This document shows positions 30,146 through 46,676 of a stretch of 64,000 nt of DNA, piece by piece (position 1 is the first letter of the stretch; each line of letters opens with the position of its first letter). Under the pieces are notes generated by a model, which made no database searches, had not been told where the DNA came from, and was given only the letters and a program-made list of their open reading frames with translations. Made by a program: the position numbers and the translations under genes. Source of the stretch: Prevotella sp. (GTDB lineage Bacteria > Bacteroidota > Bacteroidia > Bacteroidales > Bacteroidaceae); NCBI GenBank assembly GCA_016285245.1, contig JAEEQH010000002.1:1-64000 (forward strand), in the 5' to 3' direction.

Positions 30146-30159
30146 TGTAAACGATTACG
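30146..30159. promoter_or_regulatory. Candidate operator of the pectin locus, site 1
   Basis: TGTAAACGATTACG matches the palindrome CGTAAACGTTTACG at 12 of 14 positions. Its downstream edge is 45 bp before the -7 element at 30204-30211. Two similar sites serve the other promoters of the locus. Confidence 0.65.
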
Positions 30160-30203
30160 TTATAAAAAAACTTAATAAGTTCGGGATTTCGGGCTTTTTT
30201 CCG

Positions 30204-30211
30204 TATCTTTG
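30204..30211 (+). promoter_or_regulatory. -7 element of the GH28-GH105 / pectate lyase operon
   Basis: TATCTTTG lies 63 bp upstream of the ATG at 30274. The -33 region reads TTCG, a weak match to TTTG, which fits a promoter that needs an activator. Confidence 0.75.
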
Positions 30212-30273
30212 CCGTCGATAGGCAAAGAGATATACGTCCTTTGTCGAGACTACGGACTAAAACAAACGACTAT

Positions 30274-33200
30274 ATGAAGAAACTATTCCTACTGATGCTC
30301 ATCGGCACGTTTCTGACACTCACGGCGAAAGCCAGCGAGTGGGACGAAGCTGAATACAAGAAGATCGAACAGAGCATCAAGTCGCCACAGATTAGCGGTA
30401 AGGACTACCTAATTACGAAGTTTGGCGCCAAACAAACCAACACAGCTGCACAGAACCAGAAGGCCATACAGAAGGCCATCGACAAGTGCTCGAAGAACGG
30501 GGGCGGACGCGTCGTCGTGCCTGCCGGTCAGACATTCCACACGGGTGCCATCGCGCTGAAGAGCCACGTCAACCTTCACGTCGAGGAAGGCGCCGTCCTG
30601 CAGTTTGCATTCGAGCCAGAGCTCTACCCCATCGTCGAGACGTCGTGGGAGGGTCTGGAGTGCTTCAACCTCTCACCCTGTGTCTACGCCTTCAAGCAGA
30701 CCGACATCGCCGTGACGGGCAAGGGCACCATCGACGGCGGTGGCTCCAAAGAGACGTGGTGGCCGTGGGTCGGCACAGCCAGACACGGATGGAAGGAGGG
30801 CATGATAGCCCAGAAGATAGAGGCACGCCCGCGCCTGCTGAAGAACGGCGAGGACGGCATCCCGATGTACGACGAGCAAGGCCGTCGCTCCCCCGAGCGT
30901 GTCTTCGGACCGAAGGACGGCCTGCGTCCGCAGCTCGTCTCGTTCAACAAGTGCGAGCGCATCCTGTTAGAGGACGTCACGCTGCTGCGCTCCCCGTTTT
31001 GGGTCATCCATCCGCTGCACTCCACCGACGTCACCGTTCGTCGTGTAAAGATGATCAACGACGGTCCCAACGGCGACGGCTGCGACCCGGAGTGCTGCGA
31101 CCGTGTGCTGATAGAGGACTGTTTCTTCAACACCGGCGACGACTGCATCGCCATCAAGAGCGGCCGCAACCGTGATGGCCGTGAGCGCAATATGCCGAGC
31201 AAGAACATCATCATTCGCAACTGCGAGATGAAGAACGGCCACGGCGGCGTCGTCGTAGGCTCGGAAATCAGCGGCGGCTGTCAGAACGTCTATGCTCACG
31301 ACTGCGAGATGGACTCCCCGAATCTGGACCGCGTGCTGCGTATCAAGACAAACTCCTGTCGCGGCGGCATCATCGAGAACATCAATATGCGCAACATCAA
31401 GGTCGGCCAGTGCGGCGAGGCTGTTGTCAAAATCAACCTGGACTACGAGCACAACGAGATCTGCTGTCGCGGTTTCAACCCGACGGTTCGCGATATCAAT
31501 GTCGAGAACGTCACCTGCGGGAAGTCCAATTACGGCGTGCTGGTCATCGGACTGGACACCGTCTGCAACGTCTACGACGTGAACATCCGCAACTGCCGTT
31601 TCGACAACGTAGCCCATGGTAACAAAATCACCGGTCTGACGCGATATATCCGCTACGACAACTACTTCTGCAACGGTTCGCTCTGCCTGACGGAGCTGCC
31701 CTATAAGCACTACTCCGAATGGATGACCTACTCTGAGATGAAAAGAACGCCGAGGTCCTACATGCTCGACTTCTCGACAAAGCCCAAGTGGTCGTACGTC
31801 ATGGGCATCGAACTAGAGGGAATGCTCGACACCTATCTTAAATATGGCGGCGAGGACATCCGCCGCTACTGTCAGGAGTACACAGACACGATGATTAACC
31901 AGCAGGGCGACATCCGCGGCTACAACATTTTGGACTACAACCTCGACAACATCCGCACCGGCCACTTCGTAACCCGTATGTACCAGCAATGGCCCGAGGC
32001 CAAGAATCTCAAGGCCATGCAGACCATGATGCGCCAGCTGCAGAACCAGCCGCGCACCATTGCCGACAAGGTGTTCTGGCACAAGGCCATCTACGCCTAT
32101 CAGGTGTGGCTCGACGGTATCTTCATGGGCTTGCCCTACCGCTGTCTGACAGCGCCCATCACAGAGGCTGCCGATAAGTCCAATAAGACAAATAAGACCC
32201 ATAAGTCCCAGACCATCGCCATCTACGACGACGCCGTCAACCAACTGAAGGTGACCTACGAGCGCACCCTCGACCCGAAAACTGGCCTCAACCGCCACGC
32301 CTACGACGAGACCCGCAAAGCCTTCTGGGCCGACAAGGAAACAGGACTCTCACAGCATTGCTGGGGTCGTGCGCAGGGCTGGTACACGATGGCGCTCATC
32401 GAGGTGCTCGACGCCCTGCCCGAGACCTACAGCCGCCGCTCCGAGGTCATTGAACTTCTCCAGAAGGATTTTGATGCTATTCTGAAATGGCAGGACAAGA
32501 AGAGCGGCGTGTGGTATCAGGTCATGGACTCGCCGGGAAGAGAAGGTAATTATCTGGAGTCAACCTGCTCGGCCATGTTCACTTACGCCCTGCTGAAAGC
32601 CTACCGCAAGGGCTATGTCGGGGCGAAGTACCGCGATGCCGGCATCCGTGCCTACAAGGGTATGATCAATAAGTTCATCCGCGTGAATGCCGACAAGACC
32701 ATCTCGCTGACCAACTGCTGTTCGGTAGCCGGTCTTGGTCCCGCTGCCACCCCCGAGGTGGAGGCCGCGCTGAAGAAGGTGAACCCCAAGGGCACGGTAA
32801 AGGAGAACCAGAAGCGTGACGGCAGCTACGTCTACTACCTCAGCGAGAAGATACGTGACAACGATGCCAAGGGTCTCGGCCCGTTTATCTGGGCGTCGCT
32901 GGAGATGGAGATGCTTGGCTATGATACCAGCAACACCACGGCTGAGATTAACCGTCAGGCTGTGGTCTCGCGAAATAACCCAGTCATCACCGAGGCCGAC
33001 GCGCTGGCCTCCCTCACCGTGGGCAACGGAAGTTTCGCCACGACAGTCGACGTCACAGGCCTGCAGTCGTTCCCTTTTGATTATGAGGCAGGTGTGCCTC
33101 TGACAGCCATGTCCGACTGGGGATGGCATAAGTTCGAAAACACCAACGGCCTGACACCCGAGGACAGCGAGAAGTCGTTCGACTTGGGGCACGGCCATCC

Positions 33201-35124
33201 CGAGGTCTACGCCGTGGAGTACAAGGCGTCTAAAGGCGATGCTGAGCGCAACGTGGCCGCCACGGAGTACTTCCGCGTCAATCCTCACCGCCTGAACCTC
33301 GGCGTCATCGGCCTCGACATGACCCATGCCGACGGTAGCCGCGTGGCGCTGAAGGACCTTAAGGACATCCATCAGGAGTTGCAGATGTACGACGGGAAGA
33401 TTGAGTCGCACTTCGCTGTCGATGGCAACCCCGTCGATGTGACCACCGCCTGCCGCTACAACCGCGACGCCGTCATCTACCGAATCAAAACGACGATGCT
33501 TAAGCAAGGCCGCGCACACGTCAGCATCCGCCTACCCTATCCCACCGGAAAGCATGCCGACGGCGCTGCCGACTGGACGAAGCCTGAGCGCCATCAGAGC
33601 CGCATCATGACAGGTCAGACGACGGAGCCCAACAGCGCCATCATCGAGCACAGACTGGACAGCACCACCTACTACATCCAGCTAAAATGGCAGGGTAACG
33701 CCACGCTGAGCGAGAAGGCTCCCCACGAGTTCATGCTCACCACGGACGACGAGGTGCTGATGTTCAAGGCCGAATACATGAATCAACTGAACAGGGCCGA
33801 TCCCGACGAGGGCGGTCTGGTGTTCGACCAGCAGCTGCGCTCCATCATCAGTTCATGGAACCGATGGTGGCGGGATGGCGCCATCGTCGACTTCAGCCAA
33901 TGTACCGACCCACGTGCCAAGGAGCTGGAGCGCCGCGTAGTGCAGTCGCAGTACTTGACGAAGGTTAACTGCGCCAACGCCCTGCCGCCTCAGGAGACGG
34001 GCTTGACGTACAACTCGTGGTTCGGACGTCCGCACCTGGAGATGACGTGGTGGCACATGGTCGACTTCGCCCTTTGGAACCACCCGGAAGTGGTGGCACA
34101 GGTGCTCGACTGGTACAACCAGCAGGCTTTCGGCAATGCTCTGAAGATTGCCGAGCGCCAGGGCTTCAAGGGCGCCCGTTGGATGAAGATGACCGACCCC
34201 TGGGCCGGTGAGGCACCGTCGAACACCGGTTCGTTCCTCATCTGGCAACAGCCACATTATATATATATGGCCGAAGAAGTCTACCGTGCCGAGCCCACGG
34301 CGTCGACCCTCGTCCGCTTCGGCGAGCAGGTGGAACAGACCGCCGTGTTCATGGCCGACTTCGTGAGTTACGACAAGAAGACGGGCAAGTACTTCCTTCA
34401 GGGAGCTACGTCCATGCAGGAGTCGATGTCGAAGGACTTTTCGTATAACCACCCGTTCGAGCTGGCCTACTGGCAGTATGGTCTCACGCTGGCCAATGCA
34501 TGGCGTGAACGTCAGGGCAAGGCCCGAAATGCCGAGTGGGACAAAATAGCCCGGAACATGGCACCCCTGCCGCAGACGAAGGACGGCATCTACACCGCCG
34601 GTCTGCCGAAAGGCAAGACGACCGGACTGAAAAGCTTCGACCCCTTCGATGCCGTTGCCAGCGGTGCCCAACCCGTCGTCTTCACCGAGACGTTCGAAGA
34701 GAAATGCCGCAACGACCACCCCGCCGTCCTCGGCCCCTTCGGTATGCTGCCGACGGTCTCTATAAGCCGTAATACTATTGCGGCAAAGAAGACGTTGGAC
34801 TGGGTGATGCAGAACTGGAACTGGCCGACCACTTGGGGCTGGGACTACGGCATGACGGCGATGGCCGCCGCCCGTCTCGGACAACCGGAAATGGCTCTGC
34901 AGGCGCTGCTCATCGACACCCAGAAGAATACCTACCTTAAACAGGGCCATAACTTCCAGACTGCCGACCGTCTGCGCATCTACCTGCCCGGCAACGGTGC
35001 CTTGCTGACGGCCGTGGCCATGATGTGTGCCGGCTGGGACGGCTGTGAACAGCCCCTGAACCCCGGTTTCCCCCAGGACGGCACATGGAATGTGCGCTGG
35101 GAGGGCTTACAGAGAATGCAATAA
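30274..35124 (+). CDS. Pectin-degrading fusion: GH28 polygalacturonase + GH105 + large C-terminal glycosidase-like module
   Basis: This exported protein has 1616 residues. The ATG at 30274 starts a signal peptide ending A-K-A (about residue 19). Residues about 35-480 are a GH28 right-handed helix with NDGPNGDGCDPE near 262, the Asp pair in NTGDDCIAIKSGR near 288, GHGGVVVGSE near 324 and LRIKTN near 352. Residues about 500-885 are a GH105 unsaturated (rhamno)galacturonyl hydrolase with WGRAQGWY near 700. Residues about 900-1616 resemble an (alpha/alpha)6 glycosidase with an N-terminal beta domain (WFGRPHLEMTWWH near 1250, GARWMKMTDPW near 1302); I cannot assign its family. Joining a polygalacturonase with a hydrolase of unsaturated products suggests stepwise digestion of pectin. 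An insertion of 9-bp repeats encodes KSNKTNKTHKSQ near residue 634. Confidence 0.88.
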   Translation: MKKLFLLMLIGTFLTLTAKASEWDEAEYKKIEQSIKSPQISGKDYLITKFGAKQTNTAAQNQKAIQKAIDKCSKNGGGRVVVPAGQTFHTGAIALKSHVNLHVEEGAVLQFAFEPELYPIVETSWEGLECFNLSPCVYAFKQTDIAVTGKGTIDGGGSKETWWPWVGTARHGWKEGMIAQKIEARPRLLKNGEDGIPMYDEQGRRSPERVFGPKDGLRPQLVSFNKCERILLEDVTLLRSPFWVIHPLHSTDVTVRRVKMINDGPNGDGCDPECCDRVLIEDCFFNTGDDCIAIKSGRNRDGRERNMPSKNIIIRNCEMKNGHGGVVVGSEISGGCQNVYAHDCEMDSPNLDRVLRIKTNSCRGGIIENINMRNIKVGQCGEAVVKINLDYEHNEICCRGFNPTVRDINVENVTCGKSNYGVLVIGLDTVCNVYDVNIRNCRFDNVAHGNKITGLTRYIRYDNYFCNGSLCLTELPYKHYSEWMTYSEMKRTPRSYMLDFSTKPKWSYVMGIELEGMLDTYLKYGGEDIRRYCQEYTDTMINQQGDIRGYNILDYNLDNIRTGHFVTRMYQQWPEAKNLKAMQTMMRQLQNQPRTIADKVFWHKAIYAYQVWLDGIFMGLPYRCLTAPITEAADKSNKTNKTHKSQTIAIYDDAVNQLKVTYERTLDPKTGLNRHAYDETRKAFWADKETGLSQHCWGRAQGWYTMALIEVLDALPETYSRRSEVIELLQKDFDAILKWQDKKSGVWYQVMDSPGREGNYLESTCSAMFTYALLKAYRKGYVGAKYRDAGIRAYKGMINKFIRVNADKTISLTNCCSVAGLGPAATPEVEAALKKVNPKGTVKENQKRDGSYVYYLSEKIRDNDAKGLGPFIWASLEMEMLGYDTSNTTAEINRQAVVSRNNPVITEADALASLTVGNGSFATTVDVTGLQSFPFDYEAGVPLTAMSDWGWHKFENTNGLTPEDSEKSFDLGHGHPEVYAVEYKASKGDAERNVAATEYFRVNPHRLNLGVIGLDMTHADGSRVALKDLKDIHQELQMYDGKIESHFAVDGNPVDVTTACRYNRDAVIYRIKTTMLKQGRAHVSIRLPYPTGKHADGAADWTKPERHQSRIMTGQTTEPNSAIIEHRLDSTTYYIQLKWQGNATLSEKAPHEFMLTTDDEVLMFKAEYMNQLNRADPDEGGLVFDQQLRSIISSWNRWWRDGAIVDFSQCTDPRAKELERRVVQSQYLTKVNCANALPPQETGLTYNSWFGRPHLEMTWWHMVDFALWNHPEVVAQVLDWYNQQAFGNALKIAERQGFKGARWMKMTDPWAGEAPSNTGSFLIWQQPHYIYMAEEVYRAEPTASTLVRFGEQVEQTAVFMADFVSYDKKTGKYFLQGATSMQESMSKDFSYNHPFELAYWQYGLTLANAWRERQGKARNAEWDKIARNMAPLPQTKDGIYTAGLPKGKTTGLKSFDPFDAVASGAQPVVFTETFEEKCRNDHPAVLGPFGMLPTVSISRNTIAAKKTLDWVMQNWNWPTTWGWDYGMTAMAAARLGQPEMALQALLIDTQKNTYLKQGHNFQTADRLRIYLPGNGALLTAVAMMCAGWDGCEQPLNPGFPQDGTWNVRWEGLQRMQ
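32176..32204 (+). repeat. AAGACCCAT-type repeats inside the GH105 coding region
   Basis: The coding sequence contains three to four copies of the 9-bp unit found between trpD and trpC. The unit keeps the reading frame and yields a Lys/Asn/Thr-rich stretch. Confidence 0.75.
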
Positions 35125-35141
35125 AAACAAAAAATTACAAA

Positions 35142-37307
35142 ATGAAAAAACTACTTACTACACTAACTCTCGCAGCCCTAACGCTGGCTGCACAAGCACA
35201 GACCGCTCCCGCCTTTCCTGGCGCAGAGGGACACGGCCGCTACACTACCGGTGGCCGCGGCGGCAAGATTGTCCACGTGACGAACCTCAACGACTCTGGA
35301 ACAGGGTCTTTCCGTCAGGCCGTCAGCGGTACCGACAAGAAAATCGTAGTCTTCGACGTCGGCGGTGTCATTGCTCTGACGAAGGACGTCAACATCGGTG
35401 CCAATACCACCATTCTCGGACAGACGGCGCCTGCTCCGGGTATCACCCTGCGCTACTTCACCGTCAACCCTAACGGCAACAACATCGTCATGCGCTTCGT
35501 ACGAGTGCGTCGTGGAGAGGAGAAGGATGTCAATGACGGTGCCGACGCCTCCACGGCCCGCCATTTTACCGGCATTATCATCGACCACTGCTCGTTCTCA
35601 TGGAGTATTGACGAGGTAGCATCTTTCTATGACAACAACAACTTCACCTTACAGTGGTGTACTGTCGGCGAGAGCCTGAATAACGCCGGCCACGGTAAGG
35701 GAGCCCACGGCTACGGCGGCATCTGGGGTGGCAAGCTGGCATCGTTCCACCACAACCTTATCTGTCACGTGAACAACCGCTCTCCACGCTTCAACGGTGC
35801 CCGCTACGATTGGAACGGCTATACCGGGAACAAGCTCTACAGCGAGTATAAGTGGGCGAACGCCGTACAGGCCGAGAACGTGGACTTCCGCAACTGCGTC
35901 ATCTACAATGCCAACGGCTGCTACGGCGGGCCTGGTGGCGGACAAGTCAACATGGTGGGCAACTACTACAAAAATGGTCCTGCCGCCAGCATTGACCGTT
36001 TGACGACAGCCAGTTATGGTGACAACGACAACTCGGAGAATTACCCCAAGTACCAAGGCATGAATAGCCGCTACTATCTGGACGGAAATACTATCAATGG
36101 TCAGGCTGCGGGCTGGGAGAAGATGAAGTATGACGCCAGCACGCCCAAAGTAGGCAGCACCTACTACAGCTATGACCCCAACCACTACTACGGCAGCGAC
36201 CTCACCTATACGACGGTGAACGGTAAAGATGCAATACCCATGAAATTGACGGAACCGGCACCCTATGGTGAAGTGACAACCCACACGGCCGCCAAGGCCT
36301 TCGAAAAGGTGCTCAGCTATGCCGGTGCATCGCTTACCCCCGACGATGTGGACCAGCGCTACTTCAAAGAAGCCAAGAACGGCACGGCCACCTACAAAGG
36401 ATCGGTAACAAAGAAATCCGGTCGCATCGACAAAGTCTCTGACGTCAACGGCTACACCGAGGCAAACTTCGGCACGGGCAGTCGTGAGGCCGGCTTTGAC
36501 ACCGACCGCGACGGCATTCCCGATGCCTGGGAGACGGCCAACGGCCTGAATCCCAACGATGCGACGGATGCCTTGAAGACGACGCTCGACCCTGCCAAAT
36601 ACTATACGAACATCGAGGTCTACGCCAACTCGCTGGTACAGGACATCATGCTTGCTGGCAATGCTGACGCCAAAGAAGCCGCCAAGGAGTACTACCCCGC
36701 CTACAAGAAGGAGGACGGCACACAAGTAGAGGCAGTCAACACCTCGGGAGCGGACACCAGCGGTAGCGGTACCACGCCTTCGCAGGAGGCCGCAACGTAT
36801 ACCGTCATGTTCAACGGTTCAAACGTACAGAATCCCGACGGTTTTTTTACGTTCAATGAGGCAAAGCACAACTTCAACACTAAGTTTCAAGGCTCATACG
36901 ACGGTCTGACCTTCAATAGTGGTCTGAAGTTGGAAGGAGCGACCCTCGTTGCCTTCACCACCAACGCTATCGGTACGGTAACTATCGTCCAGTCTACGTG
37001 GAGTAACTTCTCCTTGAAGCTTGACGGCAACGAGCTAGACGTTGCAACGGCCACCACACCTGCAGGCAGTGACGGGGTTCGCGTTTATACGGAAGCTATT
37101 TCGGCAGGCGAGCACAAGATCACTCGCGGTAATGGCGAGAGCGGAATCTTCTACGTCATCGTGAAGACTGAGGGTAACGCTACGGGTATCACCACCGTCA
37201 GAGCCCGCACTCAGACAGGTGCGACGTACAACCTCGGCGGACAGCGTGTAGCTGCAGGTTACAAAGGCATTGTCGTGAAGAACGGACATAAGCAGGTCGT
37301 TCGCTAA
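35142..37307 (+). CDS. Exported PL1-type pectate lyase with C-terminal sorting-like tail
   Basis: The 721-residue enzyme should cleave polygalacturonate by beta-elimination, giving the unsaturated oligomers that GH105 enzymes use. The ATG at 35142 starts a signal peptide ending A-Q-A-Q. The parallel beta-helix (about 25-400) has the PL1 start PAFPGAEGHGRYTTGG, VTNLNDSGTGSFRQAV near 48, IIIDHCSFSWSIDE near 147 and RSPRFNGARYDW near 218 with the catalytic Arg. A calcium-type segment DTDRDGIPDAWE near 450, a Ser/Thr/Gly linker near 545 and a beta-sandwich (about 560-675) follow, then the tail YNLGGQRVAAGYKGIVVKNG. It starts 17 bp after the GH28-GH105 gene and is co-transcribed with it. Confidence 0.93.
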   Translation: MKKLLTTLTLAALTLAAQAQTAPAFPGAEGHGRYTTGGRGGKIVHVTNLNDSGTGSFRQAVSGTDKKIVVFDVGGVIALTKDVNIGANTTILGQTAPAPGITLRYFTVNPNGNNIVMRFVRVRRGEEKDVNDGADASTARHFTGIIIDHCSFSWSIDEVASFYDNNNFTLQWCTVGESLNNAGHGKGAHGYGGIWGGKLASFHHNLICHVNNRSPRFNGARYDWNGYTGNKLYSEYKWANAVQAENVDFRNCVIYNANGCYGGPGGGQVNMVGNYYKNGPAASIDRLTTASYGDNDNSENYPKYQGMNSRYYLDGNTINGQAAGWEKMKYDASTPKVGSTYYSYDPNHYYGSDLTYTTVNGKDAIPMKLTEPAPYGEVTTHTAAKAFEKVLSYAGASLTPDDVDQRYFKEAKNGTATYKGSVTKKSGRIDKVSDVNGYTEANFGTGSREAGFDTDRDGIPDAWETANGLNPNDATDALKTTLDPAKYYTNIEVYANSLVQDIMLAGNADAKEAAKEYYPAYKKEDGTQVEAVNTSGADTSGSGTTPSQEAATYTVMFNGSNVQNPDGFFTFNEAKHNFNTKFQGSYDGLTFNSGLKLEGATLVAFTTNAIGTVTIVQSTWSNFSLKLDGNELDVATATTPAGSDGVRVYTEAISAGEHKITRGNGESGIFYVIVKTEGNATGITTVRARTQTGATYNLGGQRVAAGYKGIVVKNGHKQVVR

Positions 37308-37319
37308 CACGTACACAAA

Positions 37320-37403
37320 AAAAGTGCCACTTTTCTTCGGATAAGTGGCGCTTTTCTGCAAATAAGTGGCACTTATTCGGAAATAAGTGCCACTTATTGT
37401 ATG
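37320..37403. repeat. Tandem array, four units of exactly 21 bp
   Basis: Units are 37320-37340, 37341-37361, 37362-37382 and 37383-37403. Each carries AAGTG(C/G)C(A/G)CTT, an AAG-N5-CTT palindrome, in the same place, with variable spacer. The array fills the gap between two convergent 3' ends; no standard terminator is present there. Confidence 0.88.
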
Positions 37404-37439
37404 AATTCTCGAGAGAATTCAGCGGAAAGTCGGCTCCTT

Positions 37440-38069
37440 TTACTTCATGTACTTACGACCGTTCTTGATAACCAGGCCTTTGTAGCCAGCACCCACCTTC
37501 TGACCAGCGAGGTTGTAGACGGCGCCGTCTTTCTGTTCAGCCTTAACGGTGCTGACACCAGCGCTACCGCCGCGAACGACCTTGATAAGCGTCACGTTTG
37601 TAGCGGTGTTGCCATTACGGCCAAGATAAATCTTATCGGCATCGGCCTCAAGCGTGTAGCTCTGCTCAGCGGGATCTTCAGCGACAATGCGGGAGTTGAT
37701 GAAGTCATCGAAGGTATTCAAGGCAGTAGGAGTAGTACCATCGAGGGTGAAGACGACAACAGTACCTCTCTTCGACTCGTCTGAATTGTTGATGGCACCA
37801 GAAACAGTAATGACATCACCAGCCTTGAAGCCGCCCTCAACCTCCAGATTGATGGAGTTGTTATTGTATACCTCGTCAGTAGTAAAGCCATTTGCCAGCT
37901 TGTAGCAAGCTACGGCGTCAACATTCAAGTGAATCTTGACAGTAGCCTCAGTAGTGGTACCTGTGAACGTAATTCCATCCTTACTGGTGGGGAAATCAAT
38001 CAGCGTGGTCTGTGCGTACATGCCAACAGATGCAAGCGTAGTAACGATAAGTGTAAAAATTTTCTTCAT
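37440..38069 (-). CDS. Small exported beta-sandwich protein with sorting-like tail
   Basis: I do not recognise the function of this 209-residue protein. The ATG at 38069 begins a signal peptide (MKKIFTLIVTTLASVGMYAQ); the frame upstream of it runs across the promoter and is ignored. The body (about 22-165) is one beta-rich domain like a carbohydrate-binding module, with alternating hydrophobic residues and many Asn, Thr and Gly. The end, AVYNLAGQKVGAGYKGLVIKNG, is nearly the same as that of the neighbouring pectate lyase. It shares a divergent promoter region and a candidate operator with the CE8 gene, so it probably belongs to the pectin locus, perhaps as a surface pectin-binding protein (inference). 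Confidence 0.7.
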   Translation of the reverse strand: MKKIFTLIVTTLASVGMYAQTTLIDFPTSKDGITFTGTTTEATVKIHLNVDAVACYKLANGFTTDEVYNNNSINLEVEGGFKAGDVITVSGAINNSDESKRGTVVVFTLDGTTPTALNTFDDFINSRIVAEDPAEQSYTLEADADKIYLGRNGNTATNVTLIKVVRGGSAGVSTVKAEQKDGAVYNLAGQKVGAGYKGLVIKNGRKYMK

Positions 38070-38108
38070 AAGCATATTTGTTTTAGTTAATAAATAAGTA
38101 TTCTGCTG

Positions 38109-38139
38109 CAAAGATACGCTTTTAATTTCATACTTCAAA
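38109..38139 (-). promoter_or_regulatory. Promoter of the small exported protein
   Basis: On the minus strand TATCTTTG (38109-38116) and TTTG (38136-38139) are 19 bp apart. The operator at 38160-38173 begins 44 bp upstream of the first base of the -7 element. Confidence 0.82.
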
Positions 38140-38159
38140 GGAAAGAAAAGAAAAATTTA

Positions 38160-38173
38160 CGTAAACGTTAGCG
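38160..38173. promoter_or_regulatory. Candidate operator of the pectin locus, site 2 (shared, divergent)
   Basis: CGTAAACGTTAGCG matches the palindrome CGTAAACGTTTACG at 12 of 14 positions. It is exactly 44 bp from the -7 elements of both divergent promoters (first bases 38116 minus, 38217 plus). Confidence 0.72.
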
Positions 38174-38193
38174 AAAAAAAACGTGGGAAATAT

Positions 38194-38224
38194 TTTGTTC
38201 TACTCATGTTTTTTACTATCTTTG
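38194..38224 (+). promoter_or_regulatory. Promoter of the CE8 gene
   Basis: TTTG (38194-38197) and TATCTTTG (38217-38224) are 19 bp apart, with the start codon at 38282. Confidence 0.82.
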
Positions 38225-38281
38225 TCCCCGCAATGACTGACAAAGAGCTAAAACATTAATAACAATCTAATCAAAAAACGT

Positions 38282-41200
38282 ATGAAGAAACATTTACTCA
38301 GACTCAGTACACTATGGCTGCTTGTTGTGGCCGCCGTGGCTGCACACGCACAGGACGTCACCGCAACCTGGGACTTCACCAATGCGACGGTAGTCGCCGA
38401 AGCCGTTGCCCTGAACGGCAGCACAACGGCAGGCACCATCAAAGCTGTCGAAGACAACGGCATCCTGCTGACAGTAGAGGCTAACGGTCAGACCATCCGT
38501 GACAACGGCAACAGTATCCAGACGGGCAACGTTGTATTCAAGGTTCCCGTACAGAGCAAGGGAGACGTGGTTACAGTCAATGGTTACTCAGCTCCTTACT
38601 TCGCCTATTCTATCGGCGGCACCGACGCTACCGAAGCTACGACGGTCTACACCGCCAAGGCCAGCGACGTGGCTCAGGGCTATGTAGAGATTGTAAACAA
38701 AAGCCAGTACCTCATCTCCATCAGCGTCACACAGAAGGCTAGTACTGCCGTGACGTTGACATGGGACTATACGGAGAACAAGATTCCCACGAAAGGTCCG
38801 GACAACGGTCTGTACTACGAGGCTTACGTCAACGACGCGCCGAGTACGAACCAGGGTCTGAATGGTGTGAAGCTCAACAGCACAGGTTATGCCTACTTCG
38901 AGAAGCCCGCCGTGGCTGGTAAACTGACGTTGTCCTTCGGCAACCGCAAGACCGCCGATGCCTATGTCGTGAACGTTTATGCCTGCACTATTGCCGACGG
39001 CGTAGCCACAAAGGGTAGCTTGATCGGCGAGGTGGCCATTGATGCCAGCCCCAACACGGGCAGCATCGACATTCCTGCTGACGTGACAGGCATCTTCATT
39101 GAGCGCAAGACAGGAGCAGAGGGCGTGCTCTGCAAGGTGGTGTTCAAGGAGAGCGTCGCCCGCTCGTTCGTAGACTTCGAGATTACCAATGAGCAGATGA
39201 TGAAGGAAGGCTTCGACGGCTCTACGCTGCCAGCTGGCGTCACCTTTACTGGCACGCATCGTGGCGACAATCACGGTTATGGCAATGTGACCATCGTTGT
39301 CCCCGTCGACGGCACCGTGAAGTTCACTATCGGCGGTTGCCGCTATGCCAACCCCGCAACCTGTATGATTAAGAATGCTGCCGGTGAGGTACTCGCAGAG
39401 CCCACCTTGCTGACATCTACCTGCTATCACGAGGACCAGAACGCCGCCACCTATTTCTATACGGGCGAGCCCACAACCCTGACATTCTCGAACATTGCCT
39501 ACCTCCCCTACTTCAAGGCTGAGGCAACGGAGGTGTCGGAAGCCACCATCACCTTCCGTGACCAGAACAACAAGGAGCTCGGCACGAAGACCGTCTTCGA
39601 GGGCGAGCCTGTCGGCGATATTCCCTATACCGAGGCCGACCTTACCATCCCCGACGGGCAGAAGTTCCGCGGCTGGGTGAACGCCAACGGTGTCAAGGTC
39701 AAGGCTACCGACTTCGTCTCGGGTAACATGACCATTTTGGCTAGCGTGACACCCATCGAGTCGGTCAGCGTAGGTAGTGTCCAGGTGTACGACCTGCGTA
39801 AAGCCACATTCTATCCAGAGGATCACGAGACCTTTAGCGTTACTGACGGTTCGTACTACAACGACCACGGTTTCACCTTCAACGCCGGCGGTTCGTTCAC
39901 CGTCGACGTAGCCGGCAAGGCACAGATTGTGCTGATGCTCTGCCAGTATGGCAATGGTACGACCATCAAGGTGACCGATGCTAACGGCAACGTCATCAAG
40001 GACGATATGCCCGCCATTGCAGAGAGCGACGGCGGTATGACCAGCGTCTCCTACGACGGTCCGGCTACACAGTTGACCTTCACCTTCGCTGCCCAGACAT
40101 ATCTGCACATGGTCACCGTCTACAACGTCACGGAATTCCTGGCCAAGGACGAGACTTCTGGCTATTACATCGTCCCTGCCGGCGATGGTGCCGGTCTGCT
40201 GATGGCCCTCAACACGGCCAGCGGCGAGGAGGGTGCCAAGATTTTCCTGCCCAACGGAACCTATGACCTTGGCACGGCTGCCGAGACTTCCGTCTCGGGC
40301 AAGAACATCTCGATTATCGGTGAGAGCGCCGAGAAGACCATCATCACCTCGAGTCCGAAGGAGTCGGGACTGGGCAAGGGCGACCTGCTCGTCAACAGCG
40401 GCAGCGCACTCTATATGCAGGACATCACGCTGAAGAACAATTTCGCCTACAGCGGCAACGAGGGTCAGGCACCGTCGCTCCATGACATGGGTACGCAGAC
40501 CATCTGCAAGAACGTCCGTCTCCTGTCGTACCAGGACACCTACTACTCGCACAAGGTAGGCGGCGTCTACTACTGGGAGGACAGCGAGATTCACGGCACC
40601 GTCGACTATCTCTGCGGTAACGGCCATGTATATTATAACAAGGTGAAGCTCGTCAACGAGGTGCGCGGAAGCGCCACCGTCACGGCCAACAGCGAGCTCT
40701 ATGTATTCAACGACTGTACCATTGAGAACAATGCCGATACCTGGAACCTTGGACGTGCGTGGAGCGACAATCCCACTTGCATCTACCTGAATACTACCCT
40801 GCTCGACCCCACCCGTCTGGTTGCCACACGCTGGCTGCTGAAGGGCATCAACTGCGACTATAAGATTGCTGGCGAGTATGGTACGAAGGACGCAAGCGGA
40901 CAGAACATCACTCCTGCCTCGAACGAGGTGACCTTCACCAAGGCCAACACTAAGATGAACACCATCCTTAGTGCCGACCAGGCAGCCACCTACACCATCG
41001 ACTACGTTCTGGGCGACTGGGCTGCTACGGCACAGCAGCAGGCCACACAGCTTGATGCTCCCGCCAACGCTGCCTATGCTGACGGCAAGGTGACTTGGAC
41101 ACCGGCAAACAACGGTGCTACAGCATATCTGATTGAGAAGAACGGCGAGTTCGTTGGTATCACCGAAGGTACATCGTTCGACGTTACGGCCGATCCCGCC

Positions 41201-41401
41201 AACGACGCCCTGACCATCCGCGCTGCCAACAGCCGCGGTGGCTTCGGCCCCGCTGCTCCTGTAGCAGGCACCGTCAACAGCATCAGCAGCACGAAGGTTG
41301 CCGCTAACGACGACGCCATCTACACTCTGCAGGGTGTCCGTGTGAAGAACGCTACCCGCGGTCTCTACATCAAGGGCGGCAAGACGTTCATAGTGAAGTA
41401 A
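38282..41401 (+). CDS. Multidomain exported CE8 pectin methylesterase
   Basis: A 1039-residue protein that should remove methyl esters from homogalacturonan and open it to the lyase and polygalacturonase. A signal peptide ends A-H-A-Q. Four or five beta-sandwich modules fill about 25-625: WDFTNATVVAEA near 32, a second WDYTENK module near 158, an adhesion-like stretch near 420-490 (ATITFRDQNNKELGTK), and another sandwich near 505-620. The CE8 beta-helix (about 628-915) has NNFAYSGNEGQAPSL near 719, the catalytic Asp in QDTYYSHK near 750 and in GTVDYLCGNG near 777, and LGRAW near 823 with the Arg. A fibronectin-like domain and the tail YTLQGVRVKNATRGLYIKGG end it. The large N-terminal set of modules is longer than in typical CE8 enzymes. 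Confidence 0.92.
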   Translation: MKKHLLRLSTLWLLVVAAVAAHAQDVTATWDFTNATVVAEAVALNGSTTAGTIKAVEDNGILLTVEANGQTIRDNGNSIQTGNVVFKVPVQSKGDVVTVNGYSAPYFAYSIGGTDATEATTVYTAKASDVAQGYVEIVNKSQYLISISVTQKASTAVTLTWDYTENKIPTKGPDNGLYYEAYVNDAPSTNQGLNGVKLNSTGYAYFEKPAVAGKLTLSFGNRKTADAYVVNVYACTIADGVATKGSLIGEVAIDASPNTGSIDIPADVTGIFIERKTGAEGVLCKVVFKESVARSFVDFEITNEQMMKEGFDGSTLPAGVTFTGTHRGDNHGYGNVTIVVPVDGTVKFTIGGCRYANPATCMIKNAAGEVLAEPTLLTSTCYHEDQNAATYFYTGEPTTLTFSNIAYLPYFKAEATEVSEATITFRDQNNKELGTKTVFEGEPVGDIPYTEADLTIPDGQKFRGWVNANGVKVKATDFVSGNMTILASVTPIESVSVGSVQVYDLRKATFYPEDHETFSVTDGSYYNDHGFTFNAGGSFTVDVAGKAQIVLMLCQYGNGTTIKVTDANGNVIKDDMPAIAESDGGMTSVSYDGPATQLTFTFAAQTYLHMVTVYNVTEFLAKDETSGYYIVPAGDGAGLLMALNTASGEEGAKIFLPNGTYDLGTAAETSVSGKNISIIGESAEKTIITSSPKESGLGKGDLLVNSGSALYMQDITLKNNFAYSGNEGQAPSLHDMGTQTICKNVRLLSYQDTYYSHKVGGVYYWEDSEIHGTVDYLCGNGHVYYNKVKLVNEVRGSATVTANSELYVFNDCTIENNADTWNLGRAWSDNPTCIYLNTTLLDPTRLVATRWLLKGINCDYKIAGEYGTKDASGQNITPASNEVTFTKANTKMNTILSADQAATYTIDYVLGDWAATAQQQATQLDAPANAAYADGKVTWTPANNGATAYLIEKNGEFVGITEGTSFDVTADPANDALTIRAANSRGGFGPAAPVAGTVNSISSTKVAANDDAIYTLQGVRVKNATRGLYIKGGKTFIVK

Positions 41402-41422
41402 CACGTTTATACTCTTTAATCT

Positions 41423-41465
41423 CAGCAGGCGGACCTTACGGTTCGCCTGCTGTTGTTTTTTTAAA
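41423..41465 (+). terminator. Terminator after the CE8 gene
   Basis: CAGCAGGCGGACC and GGTTCGCCTGCTG form a 13-position stem with one mismatch (41423-41452), followed by a T-rich tract up to 41462. Confidence 0.9.
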
Positions 41466-41468
41466 AAA

Positions 41469-41482
41469 CGCAAACGTTTACG
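41469..41482. promoter_or_regulatory. Candidate operator of the pectin locus, site 3
   Basis: CGCAAACGTTTACG matches the palindrome at 13 of 14 positions, and its edge is 44 bp before the -7 element of the SusC promoter. Confidence 0.72.
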
Positions 41483-41525
41483 AAATTTTTCCTACAGAAT
41501 CTGTCGGTTTCCCGATTTTATTTCG

Positions 41526-41533
41526 TATCTTTG
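41526..41533 (+). promoter_or_regulatory. -7 element of the susC-susD operon
   Basis: TATCTTTG lies 82 bp upstream of the SusC start. The -33 region (GGTTTC near 41507) is a weak match. Confidence 0.78.
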
Positions 41534-41614: not shown

Positions 41615-44600
41615 ATGTCTGTAAATTTCAAGAGTATCAGAACGACGCTTGTCGCCGCTCTTCTCCTGTTAGGAGGAGTCGTCGCACAGGCACAGACCGT
41701 CAAGGTCAACGTGAAGGACTCGAGCGGTGAAGCAGTCATCGGAGCCAGCGTCATTGAACAAGGTACGCGCAACGGTGGCGTCACCGACTTCGACGGTAAT
41801 TTCACTCTCAAGTCAACGGGCAAGCCCATCACCATCTCGTACATCGGTATGAAGACGAAGACGGTCGACGTAAAGGGCAAGTCAAGCATCAACGTCGTAC
41901 TCGAGGACGACAACACGACGCTGCAGGAAGTCGTAGCCATCGGTTACGGCTCTGTCCGTAAGAAGGATATTACGGGTTCTGTGGCAACTGTCAACAGTGA
42001 GATTCTTGCCGCCGTACCGGTTGCAAGCGCCTCCGAGGCCCTGACGGGTAAACTGGCCGGTGTACAGGTGACGACGACTGAGGGTTCGCCCGATGCCAAT
42101 GTGACCATCCGCGTCCGTGGCGGTGGCTCTGTGACTCAGTCGAACGAGCCGCTTTACATCGTCGACGGTTTCCCCGTTGACGGTATTGGCGACATTCCGG
42201 CCACCGACATCGAGGATATCACTGTGCTGAAGGACGCTTCCTCAACTGCTATCTACGGTAGCCGTGGTGCTAACGGCGTTATCCTGGTAACGACCAAGGG
42301 TGGTAAGGAAGGTAAGGTGAAGGTGAGCTACAATGCCTACTACAGCTGGAAGAAGACGGCCAAGACGATGGATGTGCTCGATGCCAGCGACTACCTGAAG
42401 TGGCAGTACGAATACTTCATGCTGAAGAACGACAATGCCGACAACTACGAGAGTGTCTTCGGTCTCTATGCCGACCGCGACCTGTATGCCAACCAGCCCA
42501 CCAACGACTGGCAGGACATCACCTTCGGCCGCGTAGGTCATGCTTTCAACCACAACATCAACATCAACGGTGGTTCCGACGCCATCAAGTATGCATTCAG
42601 CTATGCACACATGAACGACAAGGCTATCATGTACGGCTCATCGTTCAATCGTGATAACTTCTCGCTGAAACTAAATACGAAGCCCTCAAAGCGCACAACA
42701 CTGGACTTCCAGGTGCGTTACAGCGACACCGAGATCAACGGTGGCGGTGCCAACGATGCCAGCAGTACGTCGAGCACAGACAAGCGTCTGCGCAATGCCG
42801 TGGTCTACCCGTCTCTGCCACTGGGTGGTCTGGCTCAGGGTGCTGAGTTCGACGACGATCAGGACGTAGGCGGTCTGTACCACCCGCTGGTGTCGGCCGA
42901 CGACAACGACCGCAAGCAGCAGCGCAGAAACCTGAATATGGCCGGCGCCTTTGGCTGGGAGATCTACAAGAACCTGAAGCTGAAGACTGAGTACGGTCGT
43001 GACTCCTACACCAACTACGATATGCGTTTTTATGGCAAGACGACATACTATGCCCGTGAGAACGTACACAGCGAGGCTTACAAGCGTCTGCCCGCCCTGC
43101 AGCTGGCAAACACCGACCGTCAGCGCTATCGTAACACCAATACTATCAGCTATAACTTCAAGGATCTCTTCGAGAAGAACAGCAAGCATACGCTGAACGC
43201 CATGGCCGGTCACGAGTATGTGATTACCAAGAAGCGTGTCAACACCGATATGCTGGAAGGATTCCCCGCCAGCTTTGACTTTAACACAGCTCGCAAGCTG
43301 ACCAATCAGGGCCACCCCTACTCTGTCGACGATAAATACAGCCCCGACGACAAGCTGCTCTCTTTCTTCGGCCGTGTGAACTATGACTACGACAGCAAGT
43401 ACCTGATCAGCGCTACCTTCCGTGCCGACGCATCGTCGAAGTTCTCGAAGGAAAACCGCTGGGGTTACTTCCCCTCTGCAGCCTTGGCATGGCGTGTTTC
43501 TTCTGAGCCGTTCATGGAAGGCACGAAGAGCTGGCTGACGGACATGAAGCTGCGCTTGAGCTACGGTACTGCTGGTAACAACGGCATCGATCCGGGTTAC
43601 CTGAAGCAGGACCTCATCTCCAGTAAGATTGAATATGTCAACGGTTTCACCAGCTACATGGGTCCGTCAACACGTATGGCCAACCCCGACCTGAAGTGGG
43701 AGACCACCATCACCCGTAACATCGGTCTGGACTTCACCCTCTTCGACGGTAAGATCAACGGTAGCCTCGAGGCTTATTTGAACACCACCAAGGACCTGCT
43801 GATTGACTACCGCATGAGTGGTGCCTTCACCTCTCAGTACCGCAACCTGGGTGAGACACAGAATAAGGGTCTGGAGTTCTCGTTCACCTATCACATCGTG
43901 AACCAGAAGAACTGGGGCATCGACTTCACAGGAAACCTCGGCATCAACAAGTCTAAGATCAAGTCGCTGGGCGATGGCTTCAACCCCTACACCACATCAG
44001 GCTGTCTGGGCTCTACCGAGATTCCCAACGACTATGTGCTGCAGGTCGGTTCGGCCGTGGGTCTGATCAACGGTTATGTTAGCGACGGTCGTTATGAGGT
44101 CAGCGACTTCAAGGGCTATGACGAGGCCACCAAACAGTGGGTCCTGAACGACGGTGTTGTCGATGGTACGAACTTCCTGGGTCACTCGGTACGTCCTGGT
44201 GACATGAAGGTAAAGGACTTGGATGGTGACAATATCATCAAGACGGATGGTGGTGACTGTCAGGTCATCGGCGACACTAACCCGGACATGACCGGTGGTT
44301 TCGCCCTGTCTGCACGTGCTTATGGCTTCGACTTCGCTGCCAACTTCAACTTCAGCATTGGCAACGATATCTATAACGCCAACAAGATTGAATACACCAC
44401 GGCTTATCGCAGCGGAAACTACCGTAACATGATCAACATCATGGAGGACGGCAAGCGCTGGACCAACATCAATGCTGCCGGCGAACTGGTGAACGACCCC
44501 GTTGAGTTGGCTGCCATGAATGCCAACACCACGATGTGGAGTCCCTACATGAACTCCTACAGATTGACCGACTGGGCTATCGAGGACGGCTCGTTCCTCC

Positions 44601-44836
44601 GTCTGAACACCTTGACCTTAGGCTACACTCTGCCCGAGACTCTTACCAAGCGCGTTGGCATCAACAGCCTGCGTTTCTACGCAACGGCCTACAACGTATT
44701 CGTCATTACCGGATACTCTGGCTTCGACCCCGAGGTTTCTACCATCACGAAGGATGGCGGTCTGACTCCTAACGTCGACTACTCAGCTTATCCGAAGAGC
44801 CGCCAGTTTGTCATCGGTCTTAACTTGAACTTTTAA
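41615..44836 (+). CDS. SusC-like TonB-dependent outer-membrane transporter
   Basis: A 1073-residue outer-membrane barrel that imports oligosaccharides using TonB energy, here most likely pectin fragments. After a signal peptide ending A-Q-A-Q comes a carboxypeptidase-regulatory-like domain (about 27-110: VKVNVKDSSGEAVIGASV), the plug with EVVAIGYGSVRKKDITGSVATV near 108 and NEPLYIVDGFPVDGIGDIP near 172, DDASSTAIYGSRGANGV-type residues near 203, and the barrel ending in a terminal Phe (FVIGLNLNF), as expected for BAM-dependent insertion. susD follows 19 bp later. There is no N-terminal sigma-factor signalling domain, so control probably comes through another regulator. Confidence 0.96.
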   Translation: MSVNFKSIRTTLVAALLLLGGVVAQAQTVKVNVKDSSGEAVIGASVIEQGTRNGGVTDFDGNFTLKSTGKPITISYIGMKTKTVDVKGKSSINVVLEDDNTTLQEVVAIGYGSVRKKDITGSVATVNSEILAAVPVASASEALTGKLAGVQVTTTEGSPDANVTIRVRGGGSVTQSNEPLYIVDGFPVDGIGDIPATDIEDITVLKDASSTAIYGSRGANGVILVTTKGGKEGKVKVSYNAYYSWKKTAKTMDVLDASDYLKWQYEYFMLKNDNADNYESVFGLYADRDLYANQPTNDWQDITFGRVGHAFNHNININGGSDAIKYAFSYAHMNDKAIMYGSSFNRDNFSLKLNTKPSKRTTLDFQVRYSDTEINGGGANDASSTSSTDKRLRNAVVYPSLPLGGLAQGAEFDDDQDVGGLYHPLVSADDNDRKQQRRNLNMAGAFGWEIYKNLKLKTEYGRDSYTNYDMRFYGKTTYYARENVHSEAYKRLPALQLANTDRQRYRNTNTISYNFKDLFEKNSKHTLNAMAGHEYVITKKRVNTDMLEGFPASFDFNTARKLTNQGHPYSVDDKYSPDDKLLSFFGRVNYDYDSKYLISATFRADASSKFSKENRWGYFPSAALAWRVSSEPFMEGTKSWLTDMKLRLSYGTAGNNGIDPGYLKQDLISSKIEYVNGFTSYMGPSTRMANPDLKWETTITRNIGLDFTLFDGKINGSLEAYLNTTKDLLIDYRMSGAFTSQYRNLGETQNKGLEFSFTYHIVNQKNWGIDFTGNLGINKSKIKSLGDGFNPYTTSGCLGSTEIPNDYVLQVGSAVGLINGYVSDGRYEVSDFKGYDEATKQWVLNDGVVDGTNFLGHSVRPGDMKVKDLDGDNIIKTDGGDCQVIGDTNPDMTGGFALSARAYGFDFAANFNFSIGNDIYNANKIEYTTAYRSGNYRNMINIMEDGKRWTNINAAGELVNDPVELAAMNANTTMWSPYMNSYRLTDWAIEDGSFLRLNTLTLGYTLPETLTKRVGINSLRFYATAYNVFVITGYSGFDPEVSTITKDGGLTPNVDYSAYPKSRQFVIGLNLNF

Positions 44837-44855: not shown

Positions 44856-46676
44856 ATGAAAAAATATATTTCTATTGCAATCATGGCAATGTCTATCGCA
44901 GGTATTACCTCCTGCGATATGGATGCGCCGTCGCAGTCATCGCTCGACGCCTCGGTGGTATTCTCCCAGTCGGACCTGGCTGAGGGTTCTGTCATGGCCA
45001 TACACGACTGCTGGGGTAAGACCAATTCCTACCGCGGACGCTGGATAGCCTTCTACGGCATGAACAACGATGCAGAATGGTATAACGGCTGTACCTATAG
45101 CGAACGTACAAATGCCAAATTCGCCACAGCCAACTATTCAACAACGGAAGACAATACACAGCTGAACGTCACTAACGATACTTACACGGCACTTTACCAA
45201 GGTATTGAAAAGGCAAACATCGCCATCGACAACATCCGCCAATATGGTGATGTAGAAAACAATGCTGGCATGGCTCACCTGTTGGGTGAGGCTCTGACCC
45301 TGCGCGCCCTGATCTACGTGGAGCTGATGAGAACCTTCGGCGACGTGCCTGCCCGTTTCGAGCAGACAACCAACGAGAACACTTATCTCCCTCGTTCTAG
45401 CCAGGATGATATCTACAAGCAGATCCTCGCCGACCTTGAAGAGGCTGAGAACTACTGCTACTGGCCGAACGAGAATACAGTCACCAAGACCACCGAGCGT
45501 GTCAGCAAGTCGTTCGTCAAGGGTCTCCGTGCCCGTGCTGCACTCTATGCCTGTGGCTATAAGCTCTATTCAGACGGCAGCTACCGTCAGAGCACGGATG
45601 CCGAATTATCTGGCGACAAGATGTATCAGATTGCCCGCGACGAGTGTGTCGATGTCATCAAGAGCGGTCGCAACACCTTAGGCACGTTTGAAGAAAACTT
45701 TAGAAAGTTGTGTGAAGAGAACTACACCGCTGGTGAAGAGAGCATCTGGGAAATTCCGTTTAAAGAAGGACGCGGACGTGTGGTATCGTCGAAGGGTATA
45801 CGTATGCAGTCGCCTTGGAACCAGTACGTCCAATATCAGAAGACAGGTAGCGTTGGCGGCGAGTGCGGCCCTGTGCCCACCCTGTATTACGACTATGACG
45901 TCGAAGACATCCGCCGCGACATCACCTGTATCCCCTACCGTTGGTATAACGGTGGCGACAACAACGAGGGTGATGCCAAGCAGGAGCTCTGGGGTATCAA
46001 GAACTGGTGCTTTGGTAAGCTGCGCTACGAGTGGATGAATCGTAAGGCCACTTCTCTGGACGATGGTATCAACTGGCAGCTGATGCGCTATGCAGACATC
46101 TACCTGATGGCTGCCGAGGCAGAGAATGAGCTGAACGGTCCCGCCAATGCCGTACAGTATCTGCGTCCTATTCTGAACCGTGCTCTGCCCGCAGAGAAGG
46201 TTAATGCATTGATTGCCCAGTATTCTGCCAGCAAGGAAGCATTCCGTCAGGGCATCCGTGACCAGCGCAAATTTGAGTTTGCCGGCGAGATGCTCCGTAA
46301 ACAGGACCTCATCCGCTGGGGTATCCTCGACCAGACTCTGGCAGAGACGAAAGTCAAGTTGCAGCAGCTGGCCAAGCGCGAGGGCGCCTATGCCGACCTG
46401 CCTGCCAAACTGTATTACACTTACATTGATAAGCAGACGCTGAAGATCTACGGTCTGAACCATGGCGAGACGGACGATCAGGGCGATGAACTCCGTAAAG
46501 AGGAAGGCTGGGAGAGCAAGGGTTGGATCACGAGCAACGACGAGCCTAACTTGACAGAAGACATCATCAATGGCTACTATGTCGTCGATAAGCCCAGCCA
46601 GCACTGTGTATGGCCTCTGCCTCAGCTGGTTATCAACAACAGCTCTGGTACTCTGAACAATGATTTTCTTAAATAA
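44856..46676 (+). CDS. SusD-like surface glycan-binding lipoprotein
   Basis: A 606-residue lipoprotein that forms the lid of the SusC channel and binds glycan on the cell surface. The lipobox is AGITSC with Cys at about residue 20, followed by Asp, a surface-export-like residue set (CDMDAPSQ). The helical TPR-like scaffold of SusD is seen through LGEALTLRALIYVELMRTFGDVP near 145-170 and LMRYADIYLMAAEAENELNG near 410, and the C-terminal RxxKFEFAGE...DLIRWG segment near 470. It lies between the SusC gene and a lipoprotein gene in one operon. Confidence 0.95.
   Translation: MKKYISIAIMAMSIAGITSCDMDAPSQSSLDASVVFSQSDLAEGSVMAIHDCWGKTNSYRGRWIAFYGMNNDAEWYNGCTYSERTNAKFATANYSTTEDNTQLNVTNDTYTALYQGIEKANIAIDNIRQYGDVENNAGMAHLLGEALTLRALIYVELMRTFGDVPARFEQTTNENTYLPRSSQDDIYKQILADLEEAENYCYWPNENTVTKTTERVSKSFVKGLRARAALYACGYKLYSDGSYRQSTDAELSGDKMYQIARDECVDVIKSGRNTLGTFEENFRKLCEENYTAGEESIWEIPFKEGRGRVVSSKGIRMQSPWNQYVQYQKTGSVGGECGPVPTLYYDYDVEDIRRDITCIPYRWYNGGDNNEGDAKQELWGIKNWCFGKLRYEWMNRKATSLDDGINWQLMRYADIYLMAAEAENELNGPANAVQYLRPILNRALPAEKVNALIAQYSASKEAFRQGIRDQRKFEFAGEMLRKQDLIRWGILDQTLAETKVKLQQLAKREGAYADLPAKLYYTYIDKQTLKIYGLNHGETDDQGDELRKEEGWESKGWITSNDEPNLTEDIINGYYVVDKPSQHCVWPLPQLVINNSSGTLNNDFLK

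Follow-up and report, generated by a model that had tools for sequence, protein, structure and literature searches.

Through its use of pectin, Prevotella shapes fermentation in the rumen and the gut, and the pectin locus studied here raises the question of which regulator acts on its promoters. The locus lies in a stretch of 64,000 nucleotides (nt) of Prevotella sp. (assembly GCA_016285245.1, contig JAEEQH010000002.1, positions 1 to 64,000 of the forward strand), hereafter the window, which is the start of contig C19 in a genome (G000) of 2.77 Mb that is 81% complete. An initial annotation had described three palindromes at a nearly fixed distance from four promoters of this locus and had stated that the window holds no regulator gene. 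Indeed, we found no LacI gene in it and no regulator domain in the 30 window proteins scanned with Pfam, which represent part of its open reading frames. We propose, with a probability of roughly 0.7, that the three palindromes are binding sites of one LacI-family regulator, the C23 protein encoded outside the window, which would activate pectin and galacturonate genes.

All three palindromes resemble the sequence CGTAAACGTTTACG. The first, TGTAAACGATTACG (30146–30159, plus strand; two mismatches), has a gap of 44 base pairs (bp) to the -7 element TATCTTTG of the GH28-GH88 gene (30204–30211, plus strand), the gap being the number of bases between the palindrome edge and the TAnnTTTG sequence that forms the -7 element. 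The second, CGTAAACGTTAGCG (38160–38173, no strand assigned; two mismatches), is common to two divergent promoters and lies 43 bp from each of their -7 elements, both TATCTTTG, which belong to a gene for a protein of 209 amino acids (aa) (38109–38116, minus strand) and to the pectinesterase gene (38217–38224, plus strand). The third, CGCAAACGTTTACG (41469–41482, plus strand; one mismatch), is found 43 bp ahead of the -7 element TATCTTTG of the susC operon (41526–41533, plus strand); read on the opposite strand it is CGTAAACGTTTGCG, the commonest form adjoining the lacI gene in relatives. We recovered the same positions and mismatch counts as the 12, 12 and 13 of 14 matches given originally, and the distances of 45, 44, 44 and 44 listed there equal our gaps of 44, 43, 43 and 43, the former count taking in one base of that element.

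Could these sites be chance palindromes in AT-rich promoter DNA? The sequence CGYAAACGWTTRCG occurs 45 + 48 times in the window's own genome at up to two mismatches, compared to 29 + 32 times for the reversed control, and with such background counts single matches mean little. However, of the 32 TAnnTTTG elements in the window, only four have a palindrome with at most three mismatches when all gaps of 5–120 bp are considered, and all four gaps measure 43–44 bp. A pair of at most two mismatches at 43–45 bp arose in none of 200 dinucleotide-preserving shuffles of the window. At the promoters at 53238 (GH43), 23198 (trp) and 12067, which had been named as controls without such a site, the best sequences at gaps of 42–46 or 52–56 bp had 7, 5 and 9 mismatches, respectively. 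A fourth copy with two mismatches (38968–38981) falls within the pectinesterase gene, has no TAnnTTTG up to 110 bp away and was dropped as an operator, as it has no promoter. Together with the genus-wide and ortholog spacing statistics given below, the shuffles make chance a scarcely conceivable explanation. The shared palindrome at a fixed distance in the pectin locus is real, far beyond chance.

To follow the spacing across the genus, we searched 60 genomes, the window's own included, for the pattern AACGTTTRCG followed by TAnnTTTG after 38–68 bp. In total, 148 pairs of half-operator and -7 element were found, compared to 14 (counted by hand) for a reversed-pattern control. Gaps of 43–45 bp (66 pairs) and 53–55 bp (69 pairs) account for 135 of the 148, while the other 25 of the 31 positions hold 13; the two peaks are one helical turn apart. 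Among 49 matches at shorter gaps of 8–37 bp, 38 were at 17–18 bp. The initial annotation had held that the motif with this spacing, if equally common ahead of unrelated genes, would speak against its operator; other distances turned out to be rarer.

We also inspected orthologous promoters, using the best 30 matches each for uxaC and the GH28-GH88 gene and accepting sites with at most four mismatches. Three uxaC and two GH28-GH88 loci were left out for having no -7 element in the searched part. The site was present in 21 of the 27 remaining uxaC promoters, 6 times at 43–45 and 15 times at 53–54 bp, and in 10 of 28 GH28-GH88 promoters, 7 times at 43–45 and 3 times at 53–55 bp, and in neither set was there a site at any other gap between 10 and 99 bp. 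Conservation in orthologous loci, which had been expected, was thus found for uxaC, whereas for GH28-GH88 it extends chiefly to the closer orthologs. At both sets of loci, the spacing in promoters of one and the same gene varies by one helical turn and in no case by half of one. The constant helical phase ahead of the core promoter that is typical of class I activation is therefore present, with peaks at 43–45 and 53–55 bp and with uxaC at either distance. In four of 30 loci (L045, L061, L062 and L067), a TTGA-N-TCAA box of FNR/Crp-like type was seen between the 53-bp site and the -7 element, and double control of these promoters is possible.

Which genes are preceded by the site? Of the 44 sites at 43–45 bp that lie away from lacI in relatives, 40 were fetched (all except G055:C183, G020:C53, G056:C172 and G035:C22). 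Two of these (L140 and L141) are small-RNA promoters, and are included when we refer to the 40 target loci. Among the remaining 38, 27 sites precede uxaC (4), GH28-GH88 (4), kdgK (1), pectate lyase (6, after a small gene), a weak pectate lyase relative (2), pectinesterase-like (2), SusC-like (7, generic) or major facilitator superfamily (MFS) transporter (1) genes.

In the window's own genome, we surveyed 447,726 bases (the window and 20 further stretches, part of the genome), taking the pattern matches inside these stretches that fit CGYAAACGTTTRCG with at most two mismatches. This yielded 16 pairings with a -7 element at distances of up to 110 bp, with gaps of 43–44 (8), 53–55 (4), 17–18 (2), 74 (1) and 6 bp (1). 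A gap of 44 bp was found ahead of the tagaturonate reductase gene uxaB (C56), the glucuronate isomerase gene uxaC (C53) and a gene for a pectate lyase with CBM77 (C53), the frame of which begins about 580 bp past the -7 element. On C12, a weaker site, CGTAACCGATTTCG, is 43 bp from the -7 element of kdgK and 35 bp from that of a divergent lacI-uxaA pair; kdgK, and uxaA beyond its dehydratase match, were named by eye. Two further sites were seen at the short distance. At G000:C15:2907 (L024), the site CGCAAACGATTACG is 17–18 bp from the -7 element of a fumarate-reductase/succinate-dehydrogenase cytochrome b-like gene (labelled by eye). At G000:C37:7012 (L030), the site TGCAAACGATTACG is 17–18 bp from the -7 element of a gene for a 146-aa protein and, by eye, 53 bp from that of an RseC-like gene. 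These are possibly repressed energy genes.

Four LacI-family genes (C12, C18, C23 and C46) were found in the window's own genome, and the best candidate for the regulator is G000:C23:25550-26557. Its protein matched PF00356 (5e-13, above the cut-off) and, in a profile search, gave near full-length matches to the structures of CcpA, PurR and LacI, with CcpA chains scoring best. A LacI-type helix-turn-helix followed by a periplasmic-binding-like core, as predicted here, is what defines the LacI/GalR family. The recognition helix reads GVSIATVSRAL and the hinge ARSL; the ATVSR helix is present in CcpA as well. C23 orthologs of at least 56% identity were found in 35 of the 60 genus genomes, own included.

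A link between this protein and the palindromes comes from relatives. We fetched the best 80 of 390 related C23-type lacI loci, mostly from Prevotella and Prevotellaceae metagenome genomes, also from Marseilla massiliensis and Xylanibacter ruminicola, with some overlap with the 60 genus genomes; two had too short an upstream region, which left 78. In all 78, a site with at most one mismatch to CGYAAACGTTTRCG adjoins the lacI gene. On the lacI side, the -7 element is 17–18 bp from the site in 77 loci, and on the divergent side it is 43–45 (71 loci) or 53–54 bp (5 loci) away, which makes 76, none being found in the other two. The outer bases C...G are kept in 73 of the 78 sites and the other five end in CA. 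Moreover, a further site at 43–45 bp was present in 21 of the 35 genomes with a C23 ortholog and in 2 of the 25 without (Fisher 4e-5; hand-counted). Pfam scans of three of these loci showed, on one side of lacI, genes for a two-component-propeller sensor (L110 and L115) or a TonB receptor (L106); the opposite side had a gene for a LuxR-type regulator (L106) or a DUF5686 gene (L110). What can be read from the sequences is the site itself, its distance of 43–45 or 53–55 bp, its repeated occurrence at the promoters of pectin, uxaC, uxaB, kdgK and pectate lyase genes and its position next to orthologous lacI genes. Binding of C23-type proteins to these sites is predicted, and comparative evidence backs the earlier proposal of a LacI-type operator.

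The C12 LacI gene, which adjoins the kdgK site in its own genome next to uxaA and kdgK, had for that position been our first choice as main regulator. Upstream of it, at least 11 of 14 positions matched in 6 of the 26 readable loci (own included; four of 30 were unreadable), with divergent-side gaps of 43–44 or 53–55 bp, but 20 of the 26 carried no such match. C12 is present in 52 of the 60 genomes and in 33 of 33 good-quality ones, whether they have sites or not, and cannot therefore explain which genomes have sites. Its recognition helix (GTVDRV) is also unlike the ATVSR helix of C23. C12 was dropped as main regulator on its genome distribution, on the scarcity of matches upstream of it and on the linkage of the sites to C23-type lacI, and we consider it improbable that it reads the pectin sites. 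C46 was set aside because close orthologs (at least 67% identity) occur in just 5 of the 59 other genomes. The Crp-like protein BT4338/Cur of Bacteroides was also dropped, its motif (wwwTATGTTnTAnAACATAwww) being unrelated according to the accounts of its binding site (PMC3878776, PMC6989115).

The paralogs C12, C18, C23 and C46 might also share one site type and one activation geometry, with several of them reading the window sites. The malto-oligosaccharide locus (C18/C36), which has its own LacI gene, speaks for such sharing. It carries TGCAAACGTTTGCA-like (or CGTAAACGTTTACG) sites at 54–55 or 74 bp (G000:C36:124, C36:7697, C18:40156 and C18:49576, no -7 element being found for the last), that is, the same helical phase with another regulator. 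The genus-wide histogram consequently mixes regulators, and the orthologous promoters show the same phase with less of this mixing. Against shared reading stand the outer base pairs, which differ between the site types, while C...G is found at 73 of the 78 sites beside the C23-type gene. We regard sharing as rather unlikely and keep C23 as the probable single regulator of the window sites.

How would the C23 protein act on its targets? Taking the -7 element as about -11 to -4 (assumed), the site centre falls near -62 or -72. From sites some 62 or 72 bp ahead of the transcription start, on one helix face, a C23-type LacI would activate pectin and galacturonate genes by contacting RNA polymerase at promoters that mostly have no -33 TTTG, and it would repress its own gene where its site overlies the -33 TTTG in the lacI promoter. 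The effector could be a product of pectin or uronate degradation, or a signal of carbon status. The distribution of the -33 TTTG is consistent with this. It is present in 5 of the 40 target promoters at 43–45 bp, in 2 of 76 small-RNA promoters and in 73 of 78 lacI promoters, where by spacing it belongs to the operator itself. As a background, TTTG precedes 9 of the 32 TAnnTTTG elements in the window, and the targets and small-RNA promoters together (7 of 116) differ from this with p 0.001. The earlier statement that two of the four window promoters have weak -33 elements was correct by eye: TTTG stands 19 bp ahead of the -7 element at both promoters of site 38160 and is absent at the other two. 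Position-dependent dual control, with activation from upstream and autorepression over the -33 element, is likely from the arrangement of sites and fits best by analogy with CcpA, which acts as an activator at upstream sites and as a repressor at sites overlapping the promoter, depending on the helix face, the lev operon being an exception to this rule (PMC3463425). The activation geometry proposed initially is in this way backed by comparison, and activation itself we infer.

The main rival here is GalR-like repression, in which the C23 LacI would bind the same sites and repress from about -62 until released by pectin derivatives. LacI-family proteins are mostly repressors, and Escherichia coli GalR represses from about -62 at one gal promoter. 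As described for CcpA, repression too is helix-face dependent, and the lev operon is repressed from a site upstream of its promoter (PMC3463425). Expression data can be read either way. In Segatella copri on pectins, RNA-seq showed higher levels for uronate isomerase, tagaturonate reductase, an aldolase and a sugar kinase. No such rise was reported for neighbouring genes encoding altronate dehydratase, an antiporter and a LacI-like protein (PMC11784079). By analogy, this reported pattern would fit the C12 region of the window's own genome, with its kdgK side at 43 bp and its LacI-uxaA side at 35 bp, and the induction fits derepression as well. However, most target promoters have no -33 TTTG and hence little basal activity to repress, and the position of the site over the -33 element of lacI is a different one, typical of a repressor. 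We therefore consider repression of the pectin genes unlikely.

Several observations weigh against activation by the C23 protein. The -33 TTTG is present at two of the four window promoters, and the comparison of 5 of 40 targets with 9 of 32 window elements is not significant alone (p 0.14). Among the GH28-GH88 orthologs, 18 of the 28 with a -7 element have no site, and 11 of the 38 fetched target loci belong to other genes with no evident pectin link. The malto locus of the C18 LacI has a very similar site, TGCAAACGTTTGCA, at 54–55 bp. Sites and regulator also do not always coincide: G018 and G033 have sites at 43–45 bp and G041 has a uxaC site at 53 bp, with no C23 ortholog found, while G019 has the ortholog and no uxaC site. 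The uxaC gene of G018, which was left out of the 27, has its site at 44 bp; with this gene included, the uxaC test becomes weaker (p 0.0012 compared to 0.0004). In the window's own genome, the C23 lacI gene directly follows an upstream DUF5686 gene and has neither an adjoining site nor a small RNA. Finally, the statistical tests ignore kinship among the genomes.

What does the divergent promoter beside lacI transcribe? In most relatives no protein gene was found right behind the divergent -7 element; a short transcription unit was found instead. This small-RNA gene (~85 nt), upstream of the C23-type lacI (L104-L123, L264-L343), has its -7 element 43–45 or 53–54 bp from the operator, and its transcription would also be activated by the LacI protein. 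The predicted RNA consists of a core, GAGTAATGAATAGTTGATAATAAGTTAGTTAGAA, a hairpin and a T-run, with a median length of 87 nt from the assumed start. A 27-nt core is exact in 74 of the 78 loci and two more carry part of it; this RNA is a strong candidate for a new regulator. The pairing of the hairpin is kept by double changes at 9 pairs (13 sequences). In the 60 genus genomes, a 31-nt core (at most three mismatches) was found in 28, 27 of them exact, and 27 of these 28 genomes have a C23 ortholog, G012 being the exception. In a family-wide sample, the 27-nt core was present in 11 of 33 own-genus genomes and in 1 of 366 from other genera. No Rfam family reached its cut-off in four small-RNA loci. 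A match of rli56 on L167 (26 bits compared to 47, E 0.74) overlaps the small RNA and was taken as chance, and a second weak match, below the curated score, lies elsewhere than the small RNA.

We then asked which transcripts the core might pair with. With repeated leaders counted once, there were 8 loci among 73 in which it paired with the lacI mRNA leader better than did 99% of the shuffles (13 at 95%), compared to 0 of 73 at 99% and 2 at 95% for the leaders of three control genes (p 0.006). Pairing with the lacI leader is therefore suggestive only. Exact complementarity of at least 12 nt, searched in 2.1 Mb, gave a match of 16 nt to the lacI leader of L268, another of 12 nt in L125 and three small-RNA remnants; eight shuffled cores gave between 2 and 19 matches, so this search alone is uninformative. 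No copy of the small RNA with up to three mismatches was found in the window's own genome. At G000:C14:61383 (L032 10001-10180) a site at 44 bp is followed by a short transcript with a terminal hairpin and T-run. It contains no long open frame and may be a second small RNA; by eye, its sequence looks unrelated to that of the relatives. A wider scheme, to which we give somewhat under even odds, would make one LacI-family protein a phase-locked master activator of pectin use in Prevotella. Its single palindrome would repress its own gene and switch on a small RNA with a near-invariant seed of about 34 nt, which would feed back on the mRNA of the regulator and on other transcripts, and the species of the window would have kept the operators and lost the small RNA.

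The genes behind the four window promoters are those of a pectin locus. The GH28-GH88 gene (30274–35124, plus strand; PF00295, PF07470) encodes a pectin hydrolase of 1616 aa with matches in 40 of the 60 genus genomes, own included. It is followed in the same direction by a gene for a pectin-binding CBM77 protein (35085–37307, plus strand; PF18283). The divergent gene for the 209-aa protein (37440–38069, minus strand) matched no Pfam family. The pectinesterase-containing protein of 1039 aa (38282–41401, plus strand; PF01095) precedes the susC operon, with genes for a SusC-type TonB-dependent transporter (41615–44836, plus strand; PF00593, PF07715), a SusD-type glycan-binding protein (44856–46676, plus strand; PF07980) and, after susD, an fn3/DUF4957/DUF5123 protein (46698–48338, plus strand; PF00041, PF16318, PF17161).

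In Bacteroides, the known regulators of pectin use are for the most part hybrid two-component systems whose genes lie in the locus itself (PMC3878776). Here, the predicted control point is a LacI-family protein encoded far away, found via the geometry of its putative operators. The two distances, one helical turn apart, offer an experimental handle on the contact between activator and RNA polymerase at the unusual -33/-7 promoter of Bacteroidetes. The putative regulon would thus be a LacI-family one with activator geometry around pectin use and, in relatives, a linked small RNA.

Among known systems, class I activation by E. coli CRP uses a site at about -61.5 or -72.5, on one helix face, at promoters with a poor -35 element. 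The upstream position and the single helix face are alike here, and the poor -33 element may be; the protein family is different. The small RNA of the relatives can be compared to GibS and FopS of Bacteroides thetaiotaomicron, as described in PMC11697453: it is short, has an unpaired 5′ seed and a terminator hairpin (as FopS) and is linked to polysaccharide use. No such Rfam match was obtained in the four loci at E of at most 1, although Rfam may contain no FopS model; the small RNA occurs in one copy per genome and its promoter has a LacI-type site. Neither an RNA of this kind nor a LacI-type activator of pectin use in Prevotella turned up in our searches of open-licence papers.

The control of glucuronate and galacturonate use by the LacI-family proteins KdgR, UxaR and UxuR of Bacteroides (Ravcheev et al. 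2013; PMC3878776) is similar in content, by its description. Uronate catabolism genes are again part of the regulon, with uxaB, uxaC and kdgK (by eye) at 43–44 bp, and a number of KdgR-controlled proteins are extracellular or periplasmic; the parts of that account dealing with these regulators mention neither phase-locked activation nor a small RNA (PMC3878776). Close in form is CcpA of Bacillus and Lactococcus, likewise a LacI-family protein with a 14-bp near-palindrome and a central CG, for which HPr-Ser-P serves as corepressor. Unlike the cre box of CcpA, reported as TG...CA (PMC3463425), the sites beside lacI mostly begin and end with CG, and the first base of the 40 target sites is C (14), T (16), A (9) or G (1), their CG end being fixed by the search pattern. 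The target set also differs, consisting here of pectin and uronate genes, and whereas repression is described as far commoner for CcpA (PMC3463425), upstream positions dominate among the sites found here.

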